A stretch of 64,000 nt of DNA from Bryobacterales bacterium (GTDB lineage: Bacteria; Acidobacteriota; Terriglobia; Bryobacterales; Bryobacteraceae): contig JAFAQY010000112.1 of the NCBI GenBank assembly GCA_019261985.1, positions 62,001 to 126,000 on the forward strand, written 5' to 3'. How positions within the stretch are numbered: position 1 is the stretch's first letter; the number at the start of each line of letters is the position of its first letter. Shown one piece after another: positions 24,909 to 37,038 of the stretch. Position numbers and translations under genes: made by a program. The notes beneath the pieces were generated by a model that made no database searches, was not told the origin of the DNA, and was given only the letters and a program-made list of their open reading frames with translations.

Positions 24909-26298
24909 ATGAGTTCCGTCGCGGGAACCGAACAGCGCTCGCAGATATGGCCCAGCTACCGCACCGTGTGGCGCTGGCATTTTTACGCAGGGCTGTTCTG
25001 CATTCCGTTCGTCATATGGCTGAGTATCACTGGCTCAATCTATTTGTTCCGGCCGCAAATTGAGGCTTGGTTCGACCGGCCCTACGACCATCTCGCGATA
25101 GATGGGCCTCGCGCGAGCGCTGACGCGCAAGTACGCGCTGCACTCGCCGCAGTATCGGGATCAAATCTTCACTTTTACGAGTTGCCGCAAAACGCTCAAT
25201 CGGCTAGTCGCGTCATTGTGGGCAGAGGATCTGAAGAGTTCCGCGTGTACGTGCATCCACAGAGTCTAAAGATTCTAAATGTCGTCAACGAAGACAATCG
25301 TCCCATGACCGTCGTGTTTCATTTGCATGGTGAACTGCTCATGGGCGACCGCGGCTCAATGGTGGTGGAACTGGCGGCATCATGGGCGATTGTCATGATC
25401 CTGACCGGTCTGTACCTATGGTGGCCCCGCAATGCCGGGCGATTCGGCGGAATACTCTATCCAAGGATCAATCAGAGCGGGCGCGTATTCTGGCGTGATC
25501 TGCACCCGTATCCGGTCTGTGGGTCTCGTCGTTCGTTCTCTTCCTCCTCTTTACGGGCCTTCCTTGGGCGAGTAGCTGGGGCAAGTATCTCGACAAAGTT
25601 CGCGAGCTGACGAACAGCGTCGGCAACCCCGATTGGACCATCGGGTCTTCTTCAGAAGCAGCCGCTCGCATTGCCCGGAATACAAGCGCCCTTACGGTCA
25701 CATTGGCGGAGCATGCGGCTCACATTCACAAAGCGCCCAGTGAATCCGCCCGGACGTCTCTCGCCAGTCTCGACAGAATCGTGACGACGGTTTCACCTCT
25801 GCATCTGGCCTACCCGGTCCTTATCTCTCCTCCAGCAAATGCAGGAGGCGCTTGGATTGCCAAATCCGACGCGCAGAACCGGACGCTCCCGTGTCAATCT
25901 GGAAATCAATCCAGTTACTGGAGCGATTATCAGACGCGAGGATTTCAATCAACGCCAAATGGATCGACCAGGCCGTGGGCATTGGCGTGGCAGCTCACGA
26001 AGGCCAACTGTTCGGCGTGCCGAACCAGTTGCTGGGCGTGTTCACCGCAGTCGGCCTGATAACTCTCAGTGCCAGTTCCGTGGTGCTCTGGTGGCGGCGT
26101 CGGCCGCCAAACGTTCTCGGAGCGCCTCCCGCGCCCGTGCCCAGGGAAAGGGTTTCTCCTATTTTTGTGGCTCTATTCGTGGGTATGGGAATTTACTTGC
26201 CGCTGCTTGGGCTTTCGATGGTCGCAGTCCGCCTGACTGAACTTTTTCTGTTGCGGCGGATTGGGCCGGCGAAGGATTGGCTGGGGCTGGCAAGTTGA
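24909..26298 (+). pseudogene. PepSY-associated transmembrane protein, three frameshifts
   Basis: Homologous to inner-membrane PepSY proteins often encoded beside siderophore receptors and thought to aid ferric-siderophore reduction. Segment 1 (24909 to about 25505) has YRTVWRWHFYAGLFCIPFVI, ITGSIYLFRPQIEAWFDRPY, MTVVFHLHGELLMGDRGSMV, LTGLYLWWPR and VFWRDLH. The next segment is one frame over, VSGLWVSSFVLFLLFTGLPW and ASSWGKYLDKVRELTNSVGN. Near 25895 the frame shifts again (VNLEINPVTGAIIRREDF), and near 25965 once more (WIDQAVGIGVAAHEGQLFG, QLLGVFTAVGLITLSASSVV). Each junction needs one base. All ancestral membrane segments are still readable, so decay, or sequence error, is recent. Confidence 0.8.
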
Positions 26299-26446
26299 GG
26301 ACTTCCATCCTGACAAGGATGGAAGAGAGCGGAATTATATCGAGCCAAACCCTCACGCCGCCTCCGCTTGTGGAATCAGCTGAGGACCTCCCGATTGAGC
26401 ATCCAACTTTAGACCCGCTGCGTAATACAATTTGAAGGATCATGCT

Positions 26447-27915
26447 ATGCGCTGGCCTATTCAGGCGGTCGAAATTGCCGGTGGCATCGTGCTGAGGGCC
26501 TGCATGCTGCTCCGCGTCTGCGTTCTGCTGGCGGTTGTCGGTGCCAGCACATCTGTGTGGGCGGAAACGGGCCTTTCCGGCGCACTCACCGATCCGCAGG
26601 GTAAAGCCGTTCCAGCGGCAAGCATTCGGTTGCTCCATGTCAGCGGCGCGCTAGTGGCCGAAACCAGTACGGATGATACCGGCCAATTTGCCTTCGCGGA
26701 TGTTGCGCCCGGAACCTACCGGATCAATGCTGCCGCACCCGGGTTCAACACGGTTTCGAAAGACCTTGTTTTACTCGCATATCCGCACGCAACGGCTGAG
26801 CTTCGTTTCGGCTCGGTAGAAGGACAATCTCAAAGCGTGGTGATCACGGCAAAGGCTCTCGAACCTACGCTAGATCTTCGCAACTCGGAAGTGTTCAGCC
26901 GGACTCTTTTCAGCCGTGACGATCAGGTCTTCCAGCAACTAAATGCCGGCATCAACGCAGGTCAACACGAAGGCGGCGGTAAGTCTCTTGAAATCCGGCG
27001 CTTCGGATTTAATCTCGATCACGGCGGCGTGAATGGCGGGCTGAAGGTGCTGCTGGATGACGTTCAGCAAAATCAGGGGACCCAAGGACATGGGCAAGGC
27101 TATCTTGGCGCATTAAAGGCGCTGAGCCCGGAGCTCATCCAGGATGTCACCATCATTAACGGCCCCTTCAGCCCCGAGCACGGCGACTTCAGCGGCCTCG
27201 GCGTGGTGCACATCCGTCAGCGCGAGTCGCTTCCGGATCAGTTTACGGCGCGGCTTCAGGGAGGAAAGTTCGATAACGGCCGCGGATTTCTGGCATTTAG
27301 TCCCGATGCTCAAAAGACCGACGCCTATATCGCCTACGACGGCTCATATACGGACGGTCCATTCCTGAATCCCGGCCGCTACCGCCGCGACAACATCAAT
27401 GGCAACTACACCAAAACTCTCGACGAAAGCCAGAGGCTCGGCTTCCGGCTGATCTTCGGGCGGAATGATTTCTATTCTTCAGGGCAGGTGCCGCTCGATC
27501 TCGTAAATGCGGGTCTCCTCGACCGCTTCGGCTACGTCGATCCGACCGATGGCGGGCGGGTCAAGCTTGGCACGTTCTCAACGTATTACAGCAAATCTTT
27601 CTCAAACGGCGATACGTTGAGGATCGACGGTTTCCTCGGCAGGTCATTATTTGACCTGTATTCCGATATTCACGTTCTTCCTCAATGATCCCGTGCACGG
27701 CGATGCTTCCAGCAGCATGATTCCCGCCTTCAGCAAGGCGCGAATGCGAAATACACGCATATCCATAAACTGGCCGGAATCTCAGCGTCATTTCTCGCCG
27801 GGCTGAACTTTCACGACAACGAGATCAATGTCGGGCTTTATTCCCGCGAGGGTCGCGATCCCACCGGCGTCACCACGCGCGCGAATGCGCACGTCACAAA
27901 TGAAGCTGGATATAT
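26447..27915 (+). pseudogene. TonB-dependent receptor, frameshifted and truncated
   Basis: A second outer-membrane receptor. The start at 26447 has GAAGGA upstream and TACAAT at 26426-26431 as possible -10. Readable are the signal peptide (VCVLLAVVGASTSVWA), a CarboxypepD_reg-like domain (GLSGALTDPQGKAVPAASIR, FADVAPGTYRINAAAPGFNT), the plug (LEIRRFGFNLDHGGVNGGLK, ITIINGPFSPEH-like VTIINGPFSPEHGDFSGLG) and the first barrel strands, to FDLYSDIHVLPQ at 27686. After a one-base shift, the frame with YTHIHKLAGISASFLAGLNF and NEINVGLYSREGRDPTGVTT continues to about 27910. Then homology stops and a DinB-like fragment begins. About half of the barrel is missing, so it is not functional. Confidence 0.8.
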
Positions 27916-28165
27916 GGAGTCCGTACGCGATTATCGGTCATCTGATTCACGGAGAGAAAACGGATTGGTTGCCGCGCGTGATCGTAATCCTGGAGAGCGG
28001 CCCCGATCACCCCTTTGAGTCCTTCGATGGAGACGCCCAGTTCCGCGATAGCAAAGGCAAATCGATCTCTTCATTGCTGGACGAATTTGCCGAGCGGCGC
28101 TCCGACAATCTCGTGCAGCTTAGAGCTTTGAATTTGCAGCCAGCCCAATTGGAGCTGGTGGGTAT
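27911..28165 (+). pseudogene. Internal fragment of a DinB-family protein
   Basis: About 85 residues fused by rearrangement between a receptor relic and a membrane-protein relic. The readable text, IWSPYAIIGHLIHGEKTDWL, PRVIVILESGPDHPFESFDG, KGKSISSLLDEFAERRSDNL and VQLRALNLQPAQLELVGIH, resembles the central helices of DinB_2-type four-helix proteins. The start and the C-terminal metal-binding His helix are missing. Family assignment is by remembered motif and moderately sure. Confidence 0.5.
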
Positions 28166-28611
28166 CCACATCGTTGGCTTGCGCGGCTGCCCTGCTCGTA
28201 CTCCTGCTGGCGCTTATGCGGCTCTTGCCCGGCACCAAAGCGCTTCCCGAAAGAAGTGAAATCGCAGGCGGAGCGCAGGCAGTGGAACAGATCCTCGATC
28301 TTCGGCTACGTGGTGTTTCAAGAGGTGACGACGGGGGCGAACCAAGTCCCGACGTGCCGAGGCTTCGGCGGGCCAAACTAGACCTCTCGATCTATCTGCC
28401 AGTTGGTAGTGAGGACGGGTCTTACGATATCGCGCTTATAGATGCCGCGGGCCACGCCATCACAACATTATCGGGACAAGCACGACTTGAGAACTTCGTG
28501 GAGGTTTTGCTGACTAGGCTTGACCTGAGCAAGGTGAGCCCCGGGACTTACGAACTGAGGTTACGTCGTACGCAAGGACAATGGAATTCCTACTCAATCC
28601 TTGTCGAGTGA
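28166..28611 (+). pseudogene. Truncated anti-sigma-like membrane protein of a CHAT cluster
   Basis: Only the membrane segment (ACAAALLVLLLALMRLL) and the C-terminal beta-sandwich domain remain (KLDLSIYLPVGSEDGSYDIA, LIDAAGHAITTLSGQARLEN, LDLSKVSPGTYELRLRRTQG, WNSYSILVE). In acidobacterial CHAT clusters similar proteins carry an N-terminal zinc-finger (zf-HC2) anti-sigma part; here that part is absent and the frame has only a TTG near 28174 to start from. It ends 8 bp before the CHAT gene. Either a decayed regulator or an unusual short membrane protein. Confidence 0.5.
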
Positions 28612-28619
28612 AGTTCCCA

Positions 28620-31231
28620 ATGGCATTACGGGCGGGCATAGTTCGGTCGTTGGCGGCTGTAGTTCTGATTGTGGCGGTCCCCCGGCGAACTGTCGATCCC
28701 GAGCCATCCCGTACAGATCCCCTTCAAGAAGCCAAGCGCCTTGCGTGGCTGTACAACTGGGCCGAAGCTGCCCAGGTGCTTAGGCGATCTGGTTTCAAGC
28801 CTACCGACGAGGCCGCCGCTGTTTTCTCCGAGGCAGCGGAAATACGCGGCAATATTGAAAGCACATCTCTACCCGAGGCCGCGAAAGAAATCGCCTCGTT
28901 GCTCACATCGCTTCCTGCGAGGCGGGATGTTCAACTTCGCCTTGAACTCCTGGCGATCAAGGGCGATATCGAATACCAGTACAACCTTCCGGCTGCGCAG
29001 AAGACGTGGGAAGAAGCCAAACAACTTGCTGCGACCACTGGTTTATCGCAGTGGGAGGCGCGCTCCGAGGGCGAACTCGGCACCATCGCCTTCTTGAATG
29101 GCGAGGTCTTTACCGCGACCAAGCTGGTTACGGAGGCATTCCTAAAAGCCGAGCTGTCCGGCGATGTTGCTGCCCGAATACGATACTGCACCGATCTGGG
29201 GGAGGGGTTCGCGGAGTATGGCCGGTCAGCGGACGCAATTCGTTTTTTCAACAAAGCTCTTGGGCTCGCTGCCGCCACTCCGGGCGCCTACTTTCCGTTC
29301 ACGGCCTACCTAGGCAAAGCGCGCCTACTCGCTACGAACGGCCACGAAGGGGAAGGCCTTCGAATGCTTCGCAACGCATTGGACGAAGCTCATGTGAAAA
29401 ATCTAAGAGTGCGTGAAGCGAAAACGCTGACGGTCTTGGGGGAGCTTGAATCCGCCAAAGGCAGGCGCGAGGAGGCTATAGCCTCTTTGACGTCAGCGGC
29501 CGATGTTGCCCAGAGCGCAGGGCTTGACCTAATCGAAGCGGATGCCAGTAGCGCGTTGGCGTCGCTATTGCGGGATGTTGGGAGAGCTGACGGGGCGGAA
29601 GACTACGCCCGGCGCAGTGTTGCTGCGGCGGAGCGCGCTGGCGATCTCTATCACCTTCCCCAACTCACCGCGGTCCTCGCCGAAATCGAAGAAAACAACG
29701 GTAACCTCGCCCGAGCCGAGGCTGACTATTCCCGAGCGACAGATCTTGTAGGTGCTCTTCTGAAGGGTTTTCCGCAGCCGCGGAACAAGAATATTCTCGT
29801 CGCCACGATGGGCCGCGTGTACCAGGGTCATTTTGATCTGGCCATTAATCGCTCGAAGGATCTCGCTAGGGCATTCGAGATTTTGGAGTCGGCCAGGGCG
29901 TATGGGTTGGTTGACGTGCTTCGCGAACCCACTGGCGCCCGCCGTCACCTGTCGGTCCTGGACGCGGATTTGGCACCCAAAATCGCTGCTGTGAATCGAG
30001 ATCTTTCTCATGCCCAAGATTTAGGGCTGCGAAACCGACTGCTCGATCACCTTTGGGAACTCGAGATTCAGGCGTTGCATCCGCATGAGCTTAGCGCATC
30101 GTCCTATGCCCGGCCAGTCTCGTTGCATCAGTTCCAGTCGTGCCTGAGCGAAGGTGACTTGGCAATCGAATATACCCTCGAATCATCACATTCCTTCGCG
30201 TTGGCGATTACCCGGAATCGCATTGTCCGCTATGAGCTGAAGGGACGCGCTCAGTTGGAGGCCTCCGCCGATTGTTTTTGGCTGCGATGCGCGAAAGACG
30301 TGAATCACGTGCAGAATCCAAGGCGCTCTATGATCTGGTGCTCCAGCCAATCGCGCTTCTAAACCAAAGCAAGCGTGTGGTGATCATTCCGGACGGCGAG
30401 CTACATTTCGTAGCATTCGAAGCATTGATTGATCTGGCAGACCGATACGTTGTCGACTCGCGTCTGATTTCATACGCGCCCTCGGCGACGGCGTACTATC
30501 TGCTTTCTAGGCCAGCGGCGTCGTCAAAGAACGAAATGGCGTTGTTAGCGGTGGGTGGCGCTCGATACATGTTACCGGGACCCAGTGACCTCGGGTCAGC
30601 ATTGCGAGGGCTCGGGTTCTTCGATCCAGCTCGCCCGCCACGTTGGGTTGCCCTGCCGGAATCTCTAACCGAGGTGAACGATGTAGCGGCCACACAGTTC
30701 GGAAAGACCCTCTTATTGACCGGCGACGAGGCAACCGAGTCCGCAATAAAACGGCTGACGCTTTCAAACTTTCGGATGCTTCACTTCGCAGTTCACTCAA
30801 CGGTCGATGAAGAATTCCCAGACCGCTCTGCGCTAGTACTCTCAACCGACAAAAGTGACGTAGAGGACAATCTGCTTCAAGCCCGTGAAATCGTTGGGCT
30901 GGACCTCAACGCCGAGCTGGTCACGCTATCGGCGTGCGATGCCGGTTCCGGTAGGATCGAAGGCGTCGCGGGGATGAATAGCTTGGTTCAGGCATTCCTA
31001 ATGGCCGGTACCCGCAGCGTTGTCGCCAGCATTTGGCCTGCGGATGACACGTTCACAGCCGCGCTAATGCGCCGGTTTTACGCCAATCTTCGGCAAGGGC
31101 TCGACAAGGCGGAAGCACTTACGCTCGCAAAACGCCAATTACTTCACCTCAACGGCCCAAACGCGCTTCCGTTTTACTGGGCAGGTTTTCGGCTGGTGGG
31201 AGACTCCCACGGCACCATTTCAGGAGAGTAA
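28620..31231 (+). pseudogene. TPR-CHAT protease-like protein, one frameshift
   Basis: Caspase-like CHAT peptidase fused to TPR repeats, about 870 residues in its ancestral form. The start at 28620 is followed by a membrane-anchor-like helix (IVRSLAAVVLIVAV). Residues about 40-440 are TPR helices (AEAAQVLRRSGFKPTDEAAA, VRYCTDLGEGF-like YCTDLGEGFAEYGRSADAIR, EAKTLTVLGELESAKGRREE). The CHAT domain then spans the frameshift near 30270, where one T appears to be missing; it continues with VVIIPDGELHFVAFEAL, the catalytic His in MLHFAVHS and the catalytic Cys in LVTLSACDAGSG, ending PNALPFYWAGFRLVGD. Both catalytic residues are present in the second frame, so one base would restore a full enzyme. 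The S41 peptidase starts 3 nt after the stop. Confidence 0.8.
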
Positions 31232-31234
31232 CCG

Positions 31235-32254
31235 ATGAACAATCTATCCAAAGCCGATCGAGAGGCGATTATTTCAAGCGTCTTGAGGACAGTTGAGACT
31301 AAGCATTTTGACCCCCGCTTTGATAAGGAAAGATGGCGATCGGCGGCCGACGATAAGCGCACGGGTCTGCTCGAAGCAACGCAGGATCAGGATTTCGCGA
31401 CGAAGCTGAGCGACCTCGTGCGCTTGTTCGGAACGCCGGACGCTGGTTTCTTCCACGAGAGCACCCTCAAAAAGGTTCCGAAGGGATTGGCCGCCCGGTT
31501 CCAATATTGCCAGCCGAATGAGTGCGCACCCGGGTTCACGCGGCCTTCTGACGCAGGCGACGTGATGATCTCGAAGTTGGCTCACGGAGCCGGATGGCTG
31601 AAGGTAACCAAATTCCCCGGCGCAGTTGGAATTGACATCGCCAAAGAAATTGATCGCGGCATCCGGGAGTTGCGCGGCTGTGATCGCCTAATCATCGATC
31701 TCCGTGGCAACGCGGGCGGAGGTCTGGCTTTCCTGCGAGTTATGAGCTATTTGACTCCGGAACGCCTCCCGGCTGGCTACAGCGTAACGCGGGCACGCGC
31801 GGAGACCGATTACAACAAGGAATCGCTTGCGGTGTTCGACCGTATCCCGTCACAAAAGGCTGCGCTGATCTGGCTTGTCCTCAAATTTGGATTTCGCGAT
31901 GATTCCGTGAGCGTCGTTACCGAGAGCCTCGGTTCCAAGCCATTTCATCGCAAGACCGTCGTTCTTGTCGATGAGAGCACCACGGGAGCTGGGGAGCGAA
32001 TTGCTGCCTTTGCACAAGAGCGTAAGCTCGCTCCGGTCGTAGGCTCCCGTACGGCCGGCCGACTTATCTGTTGCAGCGTGTACAAGGTCGGCCACGGGTA
32101 CTTTGTGCGGATTCCCGCACGAGCATGGTTCACCTGGAGCGGGGAACTCCTGGAATCAAAGGGCGTCATACCCGATTGCAATGTGTCGAATGGGGAGAAC
32201 CGTCAGGCGGATCTTCAGCTCGACCAAGCCGTCGAAGTGGTCCGCAGTTTATAG
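31235..32254 (+). CDS. S41-family peptidase-like protein
   Basis: Cytoplasmic (no signal peptide) 339-residue protein of the tail-specific protease superfamily. It has an N-terminal helical region (ISSVLRTVETKHFDPRFDK) and the S41 core: GAGWLKVTKFPGAV, LIIDLRGNAGGGLAFLRVMS, TVVLVDESTTGAGERIAAFA, APVVGSRTAGR and GVIPDCNV. The usual catalytic Ser region (SASASE-like) reads STTGAGE, and the Lys of GxKTxGKG is Arg here, so activity is uncertain. No PDZ domain is evident. It follows the CHAT gene by 3 nt, with AGGAGAG near the CHAT stop serving as ribosome binding site, so it is translationally linked to it. Confidence 0.7.
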   Translation: MNNLSKADREAIISSVLRTVETKHFDPRFDKERWRSAADDKRTGLLEATQDQDFATKLSDLVRLFGTPDAGFFHESTLKKVPKGLAARFQYCQPNECAPGFTRPSDAGDVMISKLAHGAGWLKVTKFPGAVGIDIAKEIDRGIRELRGCDRLIIDLRGNAGGGLAFLRVMSYLTPERLPAGYSVTRARAETDYNKESLAVFDRIPSQKAALIWLVLKFGFRDDSVSVVTESLGSKPFHRKTVVLVDESTTGAGERIAAFAQERKLAPVVGSRTAGRLICCSVYKVGHGYFVRIPARAWFTWSGELLESKGVIPDCNVSNGENRQADLQLDQAVEVVRSL

Positions 32255-32280
32255 AGATCACCAATCATAAGGGGTGTTTT

Positions 32281-35210
32281 ATGAAGACCAGTTTTATATG
32301 GGGTATTTCTGTCTTAAGTGTGGCCGGAATTGCGCGTGCGCAGACCGCTGCCATCAACGGGGAGATTGCGGGGACAGTCGTCGATGCAAGTGACGCGGCG
32401 ATCGCCGGCGCGACGGTCAGTGCGACAAACGGAGCAACGGGCTATCGGCAAAGTACTGTCACAACCCTAGAGGGTCTTTATAGGCTGCCAGTTCTGCCAA
32501 TCGGCGAATATTCCGTCAACGTTTCCGCAAACGGGTTCGCCGGGTATGAACGGGATGGGATCAACCTGAACGCCGGGTCCGTTGCGACTGTGAATGTCGA
32601 GCTACAACTCCAAAGCGTCACGACCCAAGTACTCGTGTCATCTGGTGTACCCGTTGTCGACCCGGCAAACACGGATGTGGGCAGCACGCTCTCTGCAAAC
32701 GCCCAAAACCTTCCCCTCGTCTCTCGCAATCCATTCAATTTCATCCTGGAGCAACCGGGTATTAGCGGCCATAGTAATACGGAATTCGGTGTACCACGCC
32801 TAATCGACGCTAACGGGTTCCTCGACCGCGTCAACTATCAGCTCGACGGAAGCAATAACGTCGAAAGCGACCGCGCCGGCATCCGCCTACTTCCGATCTC
32901 GCAAACGTGGATCCAAGAAATTCAGGAAGTGAGTAATGATTTCGCGCCCGAGTTTGGGAATACCGTGGGCACAGTCTCCAATTCAGTCACGCGCTCTGGA
33001 ACCAACTATCTATACGGAGAAGCAGCATACCTGTTCCGCCGCACACCGATGAGCGCTCGGCCAGCTCTGCTTCCCTCTAACCAGCCGACTCCTGAAGTGA
33101 ACGTCGATGCCGGTTTCGCGGACGCCGGCGGGCCACTCATCAAAGATCGCCTGTTCTTCTTTGGCGGTTACGAACACGTGAAACGTGATCTTCCAACGCC
33201 GGTGACCGTGACGCCTGCGACCGTTGCCACGCTTGGACTTCCCGCGAATTTTGCCAATGCAATTCCGTTCAGCCAGAACGTTACCTTCTTCATCGGGAAG
33301 ATGGACTGGCAATTGTCGTCGAAGAATCGGCTCACGCTGCGCTTTAACGGCCATCGAAACGATTCACCATACAACAGTTCCGTGATTGGCGGGCTGTACC
33401 TGGTGGATCGCACCTACGACTTCCTCGACCGTTCCTATGCGGGCGCTGCGCAATTGGTCAGCATCATTTCACCGAACGCCATCAATGAACTTCGATTTCA
33501 GGTGCCGTATCGCAACGAATCACAGGACCGGTTCAGCGCAACTGGCTCTGGACCTGCCATTAGTATCCCTGGCGTGGCGAACTTCGGAAATTCGCTAGAT
33601 GTCGGATTTCGATTCGAAGAGATGACGCCCGAGATCAACGAGAATCTCAGCTATAACCACCGATCACACGCTCTGAAGTTCGGCGGCAGCGTCCGCGCGA
33701 TTCGGGACACGGAAGTCCAAGCTACTGCTGCTCTATACACTTTTCCCAACATCGCCGCATTTTTGGCTGCCGTCGACGGGGTAAATCCTCGCGCATACAT
33801 CAGCTTCATTCAGACACTTGGTAATCCATCGATGCGCTACAACTCACTTTTCAGCGGAGTCTACGCCCAAGATACGTGGAAGCCCCGCCCAAACATCACC
33901 CTCACATACGGGATCCGCTATGACGTGTACAAGCCGCCTACGGCGATCGAAAGCTCCCCATTCCCGTACTCACGGAAATTCCGGACCGATAAGAACAATC
34001 TCGCGCCCCGCCTGGGCATCGCCGTTGGACTAGGCAAATTCGTGGTAAGGGCAAGTAGCGGGATCTTCTACGATCCATTCCAGACCGACATGTATCGCCT
34101 GGCCCTCCTGAATAACGGAACGCCTTCATTCTTTGCGTTCGCCACGACTCCTCAATTGCCCTTCGCGCCAACCTTTCCGAACGTCCTTCCGGGATTCCAC
34201 CGGGCACGGACCTCGGCATCCAGAGCATCAACACGGTCAGTCCGGATTTTTCGATGTTGTATTCAGTGAATGCGAATCTTTCGGTCAGCCGCGAGATCGC
34301 ACACGATACCGCGCTGACAGTCACGTACCTCTTTACGCGGGGCGATCACATCCCGATCGTTCGGAATATCAACCTGGTCCCCTCTGGCCTACAGCTTGCG
34401 GATGGACGGCCGATATTTGGCACCGCTCGCGTATACCCGGGTTTTGGCAATATTCTCACGGCCGAATCGGTTGGCCAGTCCGAATACAACGCTCTGAATG
34501 TCACTCTGAGAAGGCGCTTGTCCCGCGGATTGGAAGTCTTTGCGAGTTATACGTGGTCCCACGCCTTAGATGATGCGCCGGAGCAGAATGTCATCGACAG
34601 CGCCAACTTCTTTTTGTCCGACCCCACCAATTGTCGGCGGGATCGAAGTAATTCGCTAACGGATCGCCCGAATGTTTTCAATGGAAACCTGGTCTACACG
34701 CCTGAATGGAAGGGCCGCAGCCAAACGCTCCGCCGTCTGTTGAACGGCAATCGTATTGCGATACTCGCGGTCATGCAGAGCGGGGACGTGTTCAACATGC
34801 GGAGCAACCTCATTCTGAACGGCGATCCGTCGACTCCCAGCGCCTTCCAGCGACCGCTGTTCATTGGACGCAACACCATCCGTGGTCCTTGGATCTCGGA
34901 GTTCAATGTTCGTTATAGCCGCCTTTTCCCCCTAGGCGAACGTTTTCGACTCGAATTCATCGCCGAATCGACAAATGTTTTCAATCACACGAACGTAGTC
35001 GGCCTCAACAGCACGGCAACTGTAAACTTAGCCGGAAACATCATCGGCCCGCCATCGTTGGCGTGGACAACTGCTCTCGACCAGCGCCTCCTTCAGCTGG
35101 GGTCAAACTTAGTTTTTGAGGCCTACAACAAGGATAAGGAACATTCAATTGCCTTATACCTCGCGTCAGACGTCATGTTGCTCCTTCCTCTCTGCCACTC
35201 TAAATGCTAA
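32281..35210 (+). pseudogene. Oar-like TonB-dependent receptor, frameshifted, stop lost
   Basis: Large outer-membrane protein of the acidobacterial Oar type. The start at 32281 follows AAGGGGTG, and the signal peptide is IWGISVLSVAGIARAQ. The CarboxypepD_reg domain (NGEIAGTVVDASDAAIAGAT, YRLPVLPIGEYSVNVSANGF), plug (LPLVSRNPFNFILEQPGI, YQLDGSNNVESDRAGIRLLP) and barrel (KDRLFFFGGYEHVKRDLPTP, NSLFSGVYAQDTWKPRPNIT) are readable to about 34196. One base is then off; the next frame carries on with PPGTDLGIQSINTVSPDFSM and VFASYTWSHALDDAPEQNVI. The family normally ends in Phe right after LLQLGSNLVF; here a missing T in the T-run turns that stop into a read-through of about 20 residues. Confidence 0.8.
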
Positions 35211-35931: not shown

Positions 35932-37038
35932 GTGTCCATACACAAGAAATCCGATGGCGTGTTTGAAGTCCGTTGGAGGGAAGGAGGTCGAAACAAAAGC
36001 CTGCGTGTTCACGGCTCCCATGAGCTGGCGAAGAAAGTTTTGCGAAAAAAAATGTCGGTTCGCGATGAGAACCGGCATCTTGATGTCAAAAAGGAGGTCA
36101 ACTTTCGGATGTCGGCGTTGATTGATCGCTACTGGACGCATTATGGCGCCAAGAAGCGCTCGGCAAACCGGGAGAAAAGCGTCCTCGATGGCATCCGGTC
36201 GGATCTGGGACGACGGTTCGTCCGTGAAGTCGACGGCATAGCGGTCTCACGCTGGTACGAGGATTTGACTGTAATTCGCAATCTCTCGCCAGGCACCGCC
36301 GTCCGGCACTTCAACGTCATGCACCACATGATGGCGAAGGCCTCGACGATCTGGTCCAAGGAAACCGGCATCGACCGGAATCCGGCCGATCAGGTGGAGG
36401 TGCGGCGTCCCGACGATCAAAGGGACCGTTATCTGTCCGAAGACGAGCTTCGGCGATTGAAGCAGGCGTTGGATGACAAGGCGTATCGCAAGGGTACGAC
36501 GAAGATCAATAAGACGTTCTACCGTCTCAGGCTGATAGTGCTCATCGCCGTCACCACGGGGATGCGTGCATCGGAAATCTTCGGCCTGCGATGGGGGGAC
36601 GTGATGTATAGCGAGGGGTTGCTGGCGGTAAGGGCGAAGCTGAAGGGCGGCAAGATGCGTTACGTCCCGATGCCGATCGAGCTTGCCGGCGAGCTGGGAC
36701 GGTTTCCCGTCGTGATTGGTGAGGATCGGATTTTCCCGCCGAAGGCAGGTGCATCGGGCGGGCGTCAGCGCGTGGAAGGGAGTTTCGAGGATTTGCTCGA
36801 AAGAGCGAAGATCGAGGGCTTCCGTTTTCACGATCTGCGTCACACCTTTGCGTCCTGGTACATGATGAACGGCGGCGATCTTTACGAGCTCGCGAAAATC
36901 CTGGGCCACTCGAATATCAAAATGACCGAACGCTATGCGAAGCTGGCGCGGCACCACATTGCCAAGACCAGCAGCACAGCGCGGGAAATCTGGAAGCTGA
37001 TGGAGCAACCGATTTGCGGCACGGCGAACGTCGGCTGA
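35932..37038 (+). CDS. Tyrosine recombinase (phage-type integrase)
   Basis: Site-specific DNA recombinase of 368 residues, intact. The N-terminal arm-binding region starts SIHKKSDGVFEVRWREGGRN. A SAM-like core-binding domain spans residues 60-160. The catalytic domain has Arg212 (TTGMRASEIFGLRWGDV), a probable Lys near 238-241 (KLKGGKMRYVPM), His300 and Arg303 (FHDLRHTFASWYMM), His326 (LAKILGHSNIKM-type LGH) and the nucleophile Tyr335 (TERYAKL). It reads toward the 3' end of tRNA-Phe, 69 bp away, the usual arrangement for an element integrated into a tRNA gene. Its family differs from the two decayed integrases at 19.7 and 43.6 kb. The matching att copy was not found in the window. Confidence 0.9.
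   Translation: MSIHKKSDGVFEVRWREGGRNKSLRVHGSHELAKKVLRKKMSVRDENRHLDVKKEVNFRMSALIDRYWTHYGAKKRSANREKSVLDGIRSDLGRRFVREVDGIAVSRWYEDLTVIRNLSPGTAVRHFNVMHHMMAKASTIWSKETGIDRNPADQVEVRRPDDQRDRYLSEDELRRLKQALDDKAYRKGTTKINKTFYRLRLIVLIAVTTGMRASEIFGLRWGDVMYSEGLLAVRAKLKGGKMRYVPMPIELAGELGRFPVVIGEDRIFPPKAGASGGRQRVEGSFEDLLERAKIEGFRFHDLRHTFASWYMMNGGDLYELAKILGHSNIKMTERYAKLARHHIAKTSSTAREIWKLMEQPICGTANVG

Follow-up and report, generated by a model that had tools for sequence, protein, structure and literature searches.

A decayed copy of a conserved sigma/anti-sigma, TPR-CHAT and S41-fold module in a Bryobacterales genome

Introduction

In the genome of a soil Bryobacterales bacterium, a CHAT-domain gene is closely followed by a gene of the S41 peptidase fold, and the end of a membrane protein of the kind found next to sigma factors lies upstream. 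Do these genes belong together, and if so, what could two protease-fold proteins and a regulator do at a locus where several parts are broken? The original prediction was a proteolytic signalling or defense module. Here, we analyzed the window (the whole stretch of 64,000 nucleotides, part of contig C125; the genome measures 6.5 Mb) together with related loci, which are numbered with the prefix L.

Organization and decay of the locus

All parts of the locus are encoded on the forward strand. A fragment of a DinB_2-like gene (27828–28173, Pfam DinB_2, 2.9e-05) is joined at about 28166–28174 to a truncated anti-sigma gene (28174–28611), which was recognized by alignment with L036, L041, L042, L038 and L037. 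The TPR half of a TPR-CHAT protein follows (28620–30362, within an ORF at 28581–30362; Pfam TPR_12, 4.7e-09), bearing a hydrophobic signal or anchor at its N-terminus, and the CHAT domain lies in another frame (30272–31231, Pfam CHAT PF12770, 2e-65, 221 bits vs. a cut-off of 24). The TPR-CHAT gene (28581–31231) is thus spread over two reading frames, and the predicted frameshift was located at about 30265–30285, where the aligned intact relatives read through. The codons of the catalytic His (30794–30796) and Cys (30935–30937) share one frame, as had been described. The CHAT stop codon (31229–31231) and the ATG of the S41-fold gene (31235–32254, 339 aa, Pfam Peptidase_S41, 1.1e-23, 84 bits vs. 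a cut-off of 24) are 3 nt apart, again as stated originally, and the S41 frame is still open. Downstream lies a CarboxypepD_reg/TonB-type outer-membrane barrel gene (32281–35210), identified by Pfam, phmmer and DNA match and broken near 34260 into two pieces (phmmer, 1073 and 466 bits); it is the counterpart of the same-strand gene found after S41 in L036, L041 and L042. A tyrosine integrase gene (35932–37038, Pfam Phage_integrase, 1.9e-31) flanks the decayed region and is given as context only.

The membrane protein predicted upstream proved to be the C-terminal half of an anti-sigma from its transmembrane (TM) helix on, but its start at about 28166 is the breakpoint at which the DinB_2 fragment is fused directly to the TM helix. 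Homology of the remnant to intact anti-sigmas starts only at this helix; the C-terminal domain is kept, while the cytoplasmic zinc-finger (HxxxCxxC) half is lost. No sigma gene is present at the module in the window. Another copy, on contig C114 of this genome, shows 89% DNA identity over 31097–32682 of the window and is reduced to the last part of CHAT, S41 and the first part of the barrel gene. Because neither the sigma gene nor the half of the anti-sigma that binds sigma survives and the C114 copy is partial, the module looks dead in this genome. The window locus is almost certainly a decayed remnant of a conserved Acidobacteriota module, and no close copy of the module was found in plasmid collections.

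Two further broken genes were observed beside the module, a PepSY_TM gene in two pieces (24909–26298) and a truncated TonB receptor gene (26432–27688). A sequencing error was considered as the only reason for the frameshift and was rejected, since the anti-sigma truncation, the DinB fusion and the broken neighbors point to real decay; at the frameshift spot itself there may be a sequencing error.

A conserved module in Acidobacteriota

The S41 family was detected in 19 of 396 genomes in a sample of the phylum Acidobacteriota, and in 41 of 250 genomes from the family of G134 (Terriglobia by taxonomy reading). Neighborhoods were counted over 49 S41 loci read with their flanks. A CHAT gene lies within 3.5 kb of S41 at 45 of these loci, within 100 bp and on the same strand at 39 of them, and at 40 of the 41 loci where S41 has 3 kb or more on either side, so the suggestion that CHAT-S41 pairs recur as neighbors holds well beyond this genome. 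The regulator belongs with them too, as had been supposed, since 37 of the 49 stretches have an anti-sigma gene and 37 a sigma gene. Among 14 loci of the next-best CHAT proteins, none had S41, nor was a sigma gene found in their flanks.

In L036 (from the same genus), L041 and L042, the genes for sigma, anti-sigma, TPR-CHAT, S41 and barrel run in one direction, with one opposite-strand gene between S41 and the barrel gene in L042. The first four are also present in L038 and L037, the latter with a convergent sigma/anti-sigma pair. In L067–L071 and L153, S41 is found in the sigma/anti-sigma operon instead, having moved away from CHAT, which ties S41 to both halves of the module. With a neighborhood conserved across dozens of genomes and several families, the module almost certainly consists of an ECF-like sigma factor, a zinc-finger transmembrane anti-sigma, a TPR-CHAT protein predicted to be membrane-anchored and an S41-fold protein, and in the clade of the window it is followed by the outer-membrane barrel gene.

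Three loci with the same CHAT subfamily (L108–L110) had neither S41 nor a detected sigma or anti-sigma gene; in each of them a barrel gene precedes CHAT, and a protein with the motif RIAFGSCNKQ comes after it.

Sigma factor, anti-sigma and TPR-CHAT protein

The zinc-finger anti-sigma (ZAS) arrangement, with HxxxCxxC ahead of a single TM helix and a sigma gene next to it, was found in 15 of 16 intact relatives, and the TM helix in all 16; curated anti-sigma profiles match these proteins weakly. The sigma factors score close to or below curated limits as well: the ECF model TIGR02937 gave 42.5 bits for the L042 sigma (cut-off 42.9) and less at the other loci, and sigma region 4 (PF08281) was above cut-off in L042 only and weak elsewhere. 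A search of the regions upstream of sigma and CHAT for a common two-part promoter motif yielded nothing convincing.

In the TPR-CHAT proteins, the catalytic His is conserved in 44 of 44 and the Cys in 43 of 43 aligned relatives. A hydrophobic N-terminal signal or anchor was detected in 18 of 18 CHAT proteins and in no S41 protein of the family; if this simple hydrophobicity scan, which is not a trained predictor, is right, CHAT is predicted to be periplasmic and S41 cytoplasmic. Cleavage of S41 by CHAT, which had been proposed with S41 as a possible substrate, is therefore doubtful.

The top two Foldseek hits of the CHAT structure model (pLDDT 84) were both DdvA (8rw5, 1.1e-15, and 8rot, 1.0e-14), followed by Csx29 and separase. 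The match to DdvA is at the level of the fold, with TM-scores of only 0.26–0.27 and a large rmsd over the whole chain, and sequence similarity between DdvA and CHAT is marginal (E 0.0029). In VIA-align, the leading match was Csx29 (Z 27.4, rmsd 9.0, 572 residues); DdvA was absent among the matches listed. Against the Csx29 profile NF041237 the best score was 34.2 bits (cut-off 300), which leaves these proteins outside that family.

The S41-fold protein

By both profile and structure, the window protein belongs to Peptidase S41 as a fold; its model (pLDDT 81.7) aligns with solved S41 structures and with IRBP at Z about 22. The altered active site described for it was seen in the alignment: the motif reads STTGAGE, with Gly at the nucleophile position (codon 31985–31987) and Arg at the Lys position (codon 32060–32062), and the change is clade-wide rather than local decay. 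Across the 51 rows of the family alignment, the nucleophile position is Ser in 43 and Gly in 8, and the Gly rows fall in two separate clades, one of which comprises the window, C114, L036, L041 and L042. The other was observed to consist of L065, L144 and L168. The Lys of the GKG motif is replaced by Arg, Gln or Glu in all 51 rows, so that even the members with Ser may not work like CtpA. In the window clade, where both the Ser and the Lys of an active CtpA-type enzyme are missing, the PDZ region has been lost as well, while most S41 relatives keep it.

The dN/dS of S41 is about 0.09 between the window and the C114 copy (dN 0.038, dS 0.411) and again about 0.09 between the window and L036 (dN 0.137, dS 1.588), the latter value being approximate because dS is near saturation. 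The S41 protein of the window clade is thus likely to be a pseudo-protease under selection. An S41 peptidase fold within one signalling module appears to have lost its nucleophile on at least two occasions while under selection.

Cargo, defense genes and mobile surroundings

Where the sigma/anti-sigma and CHAT/S41 pairs are convergent, at least one further ORF lies in the gap at 21 of 26 loci, the loci without cargo being L037, L062, L065, L151 and L168. The cargo genes, which occur in both orientations, range from metal efflux (RND-type in L142 and L145, by visual inspection of the sequence) to kinases, helicases and unrelated functions. In L166 it consists of CBASS genes (cyclase, 1.4e-144; bacHORMA_1; AAA; DUF6602), and in L165 of SIR2_2 with an NTPase. 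Among proteins chosen by eye, matches were obtained to TmtA in the cargo of L064, a PD-T4-6-like kinase in that of L074, AbiU in the flank of L038 (which also has a CBASS-type cyclase), a DrmD-like helicase in the flank of L042 and type I restriction in that of L066. ParA-type and/or VirB4/TrbI-type genes lie near L065, L067, L069 and L070; the module genes of L068 and L071 are close relatives, and L068 has neighboring ORFs in common with L067. Elsewhere, the module is found on conjugative elements or bracketing variable cargo.

Two side observations concern the gap. In L166 (3891–8970), which lacks CHAT, the CBASS genes with HORMA and AAA separate sigma/anti-sigma from S41. A gene of 456–502 aa recurs beside S41 in L072, L159, L160, L162, L163 and L167, and two members gave a weak match to APH (phosphotransferase).

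Hits to 79 defense families were obtained in 63 cargo ORFs and to 9 in 63 control ORFs, a comparison that is not a significance test because redundant families, and not proteins, were counted. The module proteins themselves match PADLOC-DB weakly (E 0.002 or worse; CHAT 0.004) and S41 matches none of its families, in a 2023 library in which absence excludes nothing. The link between module and defense is a suggestive association. The conserved grouping bears out the predicted module, while its defense side draws on neighborhood and on analogy with DdvA and Csx29; control of defense cargo by the sigma factor is a tentative possibility.

Discussion

The reading we favor, with a probability of about 0.5, is a split, mobile, DdvA-like sigma switch that senses the envelope. 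The anti-sigma would hold the sigma factor at the membrane, and, from the periplasm, the TPR-CHAT protein would sense an envelope signal and cut or pull the outer domain of the anti-sigma, a domain that a CHAT with the predicted periplasmic location could reach. The freed sigma factor would then switch on the module and perhaps neighboring cargo. Such a switch would be a split version of DdvS-DdvA, with TPR-CHAT and anti-sigma as separate chains, and S41 might be its cytoplasmic partner, turned into a non-catalytic scaffold or gate in the window clade. The analysis itself establishes which genes the module contains and that they are conserved, the predicted topology, the fold and catalytic pair of CHAT, the residue losses of S41 under selection and the decay of the window copy; the action of CHAT on the anti-sigma, the signal, the role of S41 and the control of cargo are what we infer. 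Several observations count against the switch: a cytoplasmic S41 would have no obvious way to meet a periplasmic CHAT, L108–L110 have CHAT without S41 or detected regulators, and L166 has no CHAT. The sigma scores below the ECF cut-off, the likeness to DdvA at fold level and the negative promoter search count against it as well. A wider proposal is a mobile 'bookend': one gene pair would stand on each side of interchangeable cargo (CBASS, SIR2-NTPase, TmtA, kinases, metal efflux), and genes in the gap or close to it would answer to a single sigma switch of caspase-like type, triggered at the envelope and gated by the S41 pseudo-protease; this we regard as doubtful.

Could the genes be chance neighbors in a decayed region, with no functional link? 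The window copy is indeed broken, as are other genes near it, but the conserved neighborhood, with CHAT at 45 of 49 S41 loci, refutes this explanation and leaves it a negligible chance. CHAT and S41 might instead be an effector pair of an abortive-infection or toxin-antitoxin-like kind, in which S41 restrains CHAT or is cut by it and the sigma pair sets expression only. The tight same-strand placement of the two genes (39 of 49 within 100 bp), the repeated loss of the S41 nucleophile, which fits an inhibitor, and the defense or mobile surroundings speak for such a pair. We consider it unlikely, since the predicted compartments of the two proteins differ, PADLOC families match S41 nowhere and CHAT at 0.004 only, and S41 sits with sigma/anti-sigma rather than CHAT in L067–L071 and L153.

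Ordinary cell-surface signalling of the FecI-FecR type, controlling an outer-membrane transporter with the defense genes as bystanders, would account for the barrel gene located about 26–60 bp after S41, and on its strand, in L036, L041 and the window, and for the one adjoining CHAT in L108–L110. Its chances are also low: an orthologous barrel was not found in the Terriglobia loci, such barrels are common, occurring in 7 of 16 control stretches, and the cargo is highly variable. For the cargo alone, it is quite possible, somewhat short of even odds, that the gap is only an insertion hotspot where insertions are harmless and regulation by sigma is not needed. The mixed content of the cargo, from metal efflux to kinases, helicases and unrelated genes, fits this, as do its varying orientation and the convergent loci without cargo; the precedent of DdvS, an ECF factor running a defense island, argues against it. 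This explanation is compatible with the sigma switch as a reading of the module itself.

Among known structures, the S41 model aligns with CtpA, CtpB, D1 protease and Prc (Z about 21–22, rmsd 3–4, about 236–266 residues), and the DLRGNxGG motif, and in most relatives the PDZ region, are common to the module S41 and these C-terminal processing peptidases. In contrast to CtpA-type enzymes, the module S41 is without Ser and PDZ in the window clade and without Lys and signal peptide in the whole family. IRBP (retinol-binding protein 3), a non-catalytic binder, has the fold without PDZ (Z 21.8, rmsd 3.8, 262 residues); it is a eukaryotic secreted carrier, and the likeness shows only that an S41 fold can lose catalysis. 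Two Bacteroidota families match weakly, far below their curated cut-offs: NF058625 (sigma_PG0214) with the L042 sigma (3.8e-08, 33 bits vs. 130) and NF058627 (S41_Gfo1087) with the L038 S41 (1.2e-11, 44 bits vs. 455).

In two known systems with a defense setting, a CHAT-type chain is linked to ECF factor control. In Type III-E Craspase, a TPR-CHAT protease adjoins an ECF factor and its inhibitor, much as it adjoins an ECF-like sigma factor and its anti-sigma in the module, and Csx29 cleaves Csx30, which inhibits the ECF factor CASP-sigma (PMC10028731); however, Csx29 partners an RNA-guided effector, whereas the CHAT protein of the module has an N-terminal signal or anchor. In Myxococcus xanthus, DdvS is an ECF sigma factor and DdvA its anti-sigma (PMC4374960), and DdvS controls a defense island comprising two CBASS systems and one III-B CRISPR system (PMC12288465). 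Like the module with its ECF-like sigma, DdvS-DdvA combines a sigma factor, a transmembrane anti-sigma and a CHAT-containing chain, but PDB titles and reviews describe DdvA as a single chain with both anti-sigma and CHAT, whereas they are separate genes in all intact loci of the module, which also adds an S41-fold partner. If the sigma-switch reading is true, the DdvS-type case of an ECF factor running a defense island would reach a second phylum, and the trigger would become testable there because the putative protease has a gene of its own.
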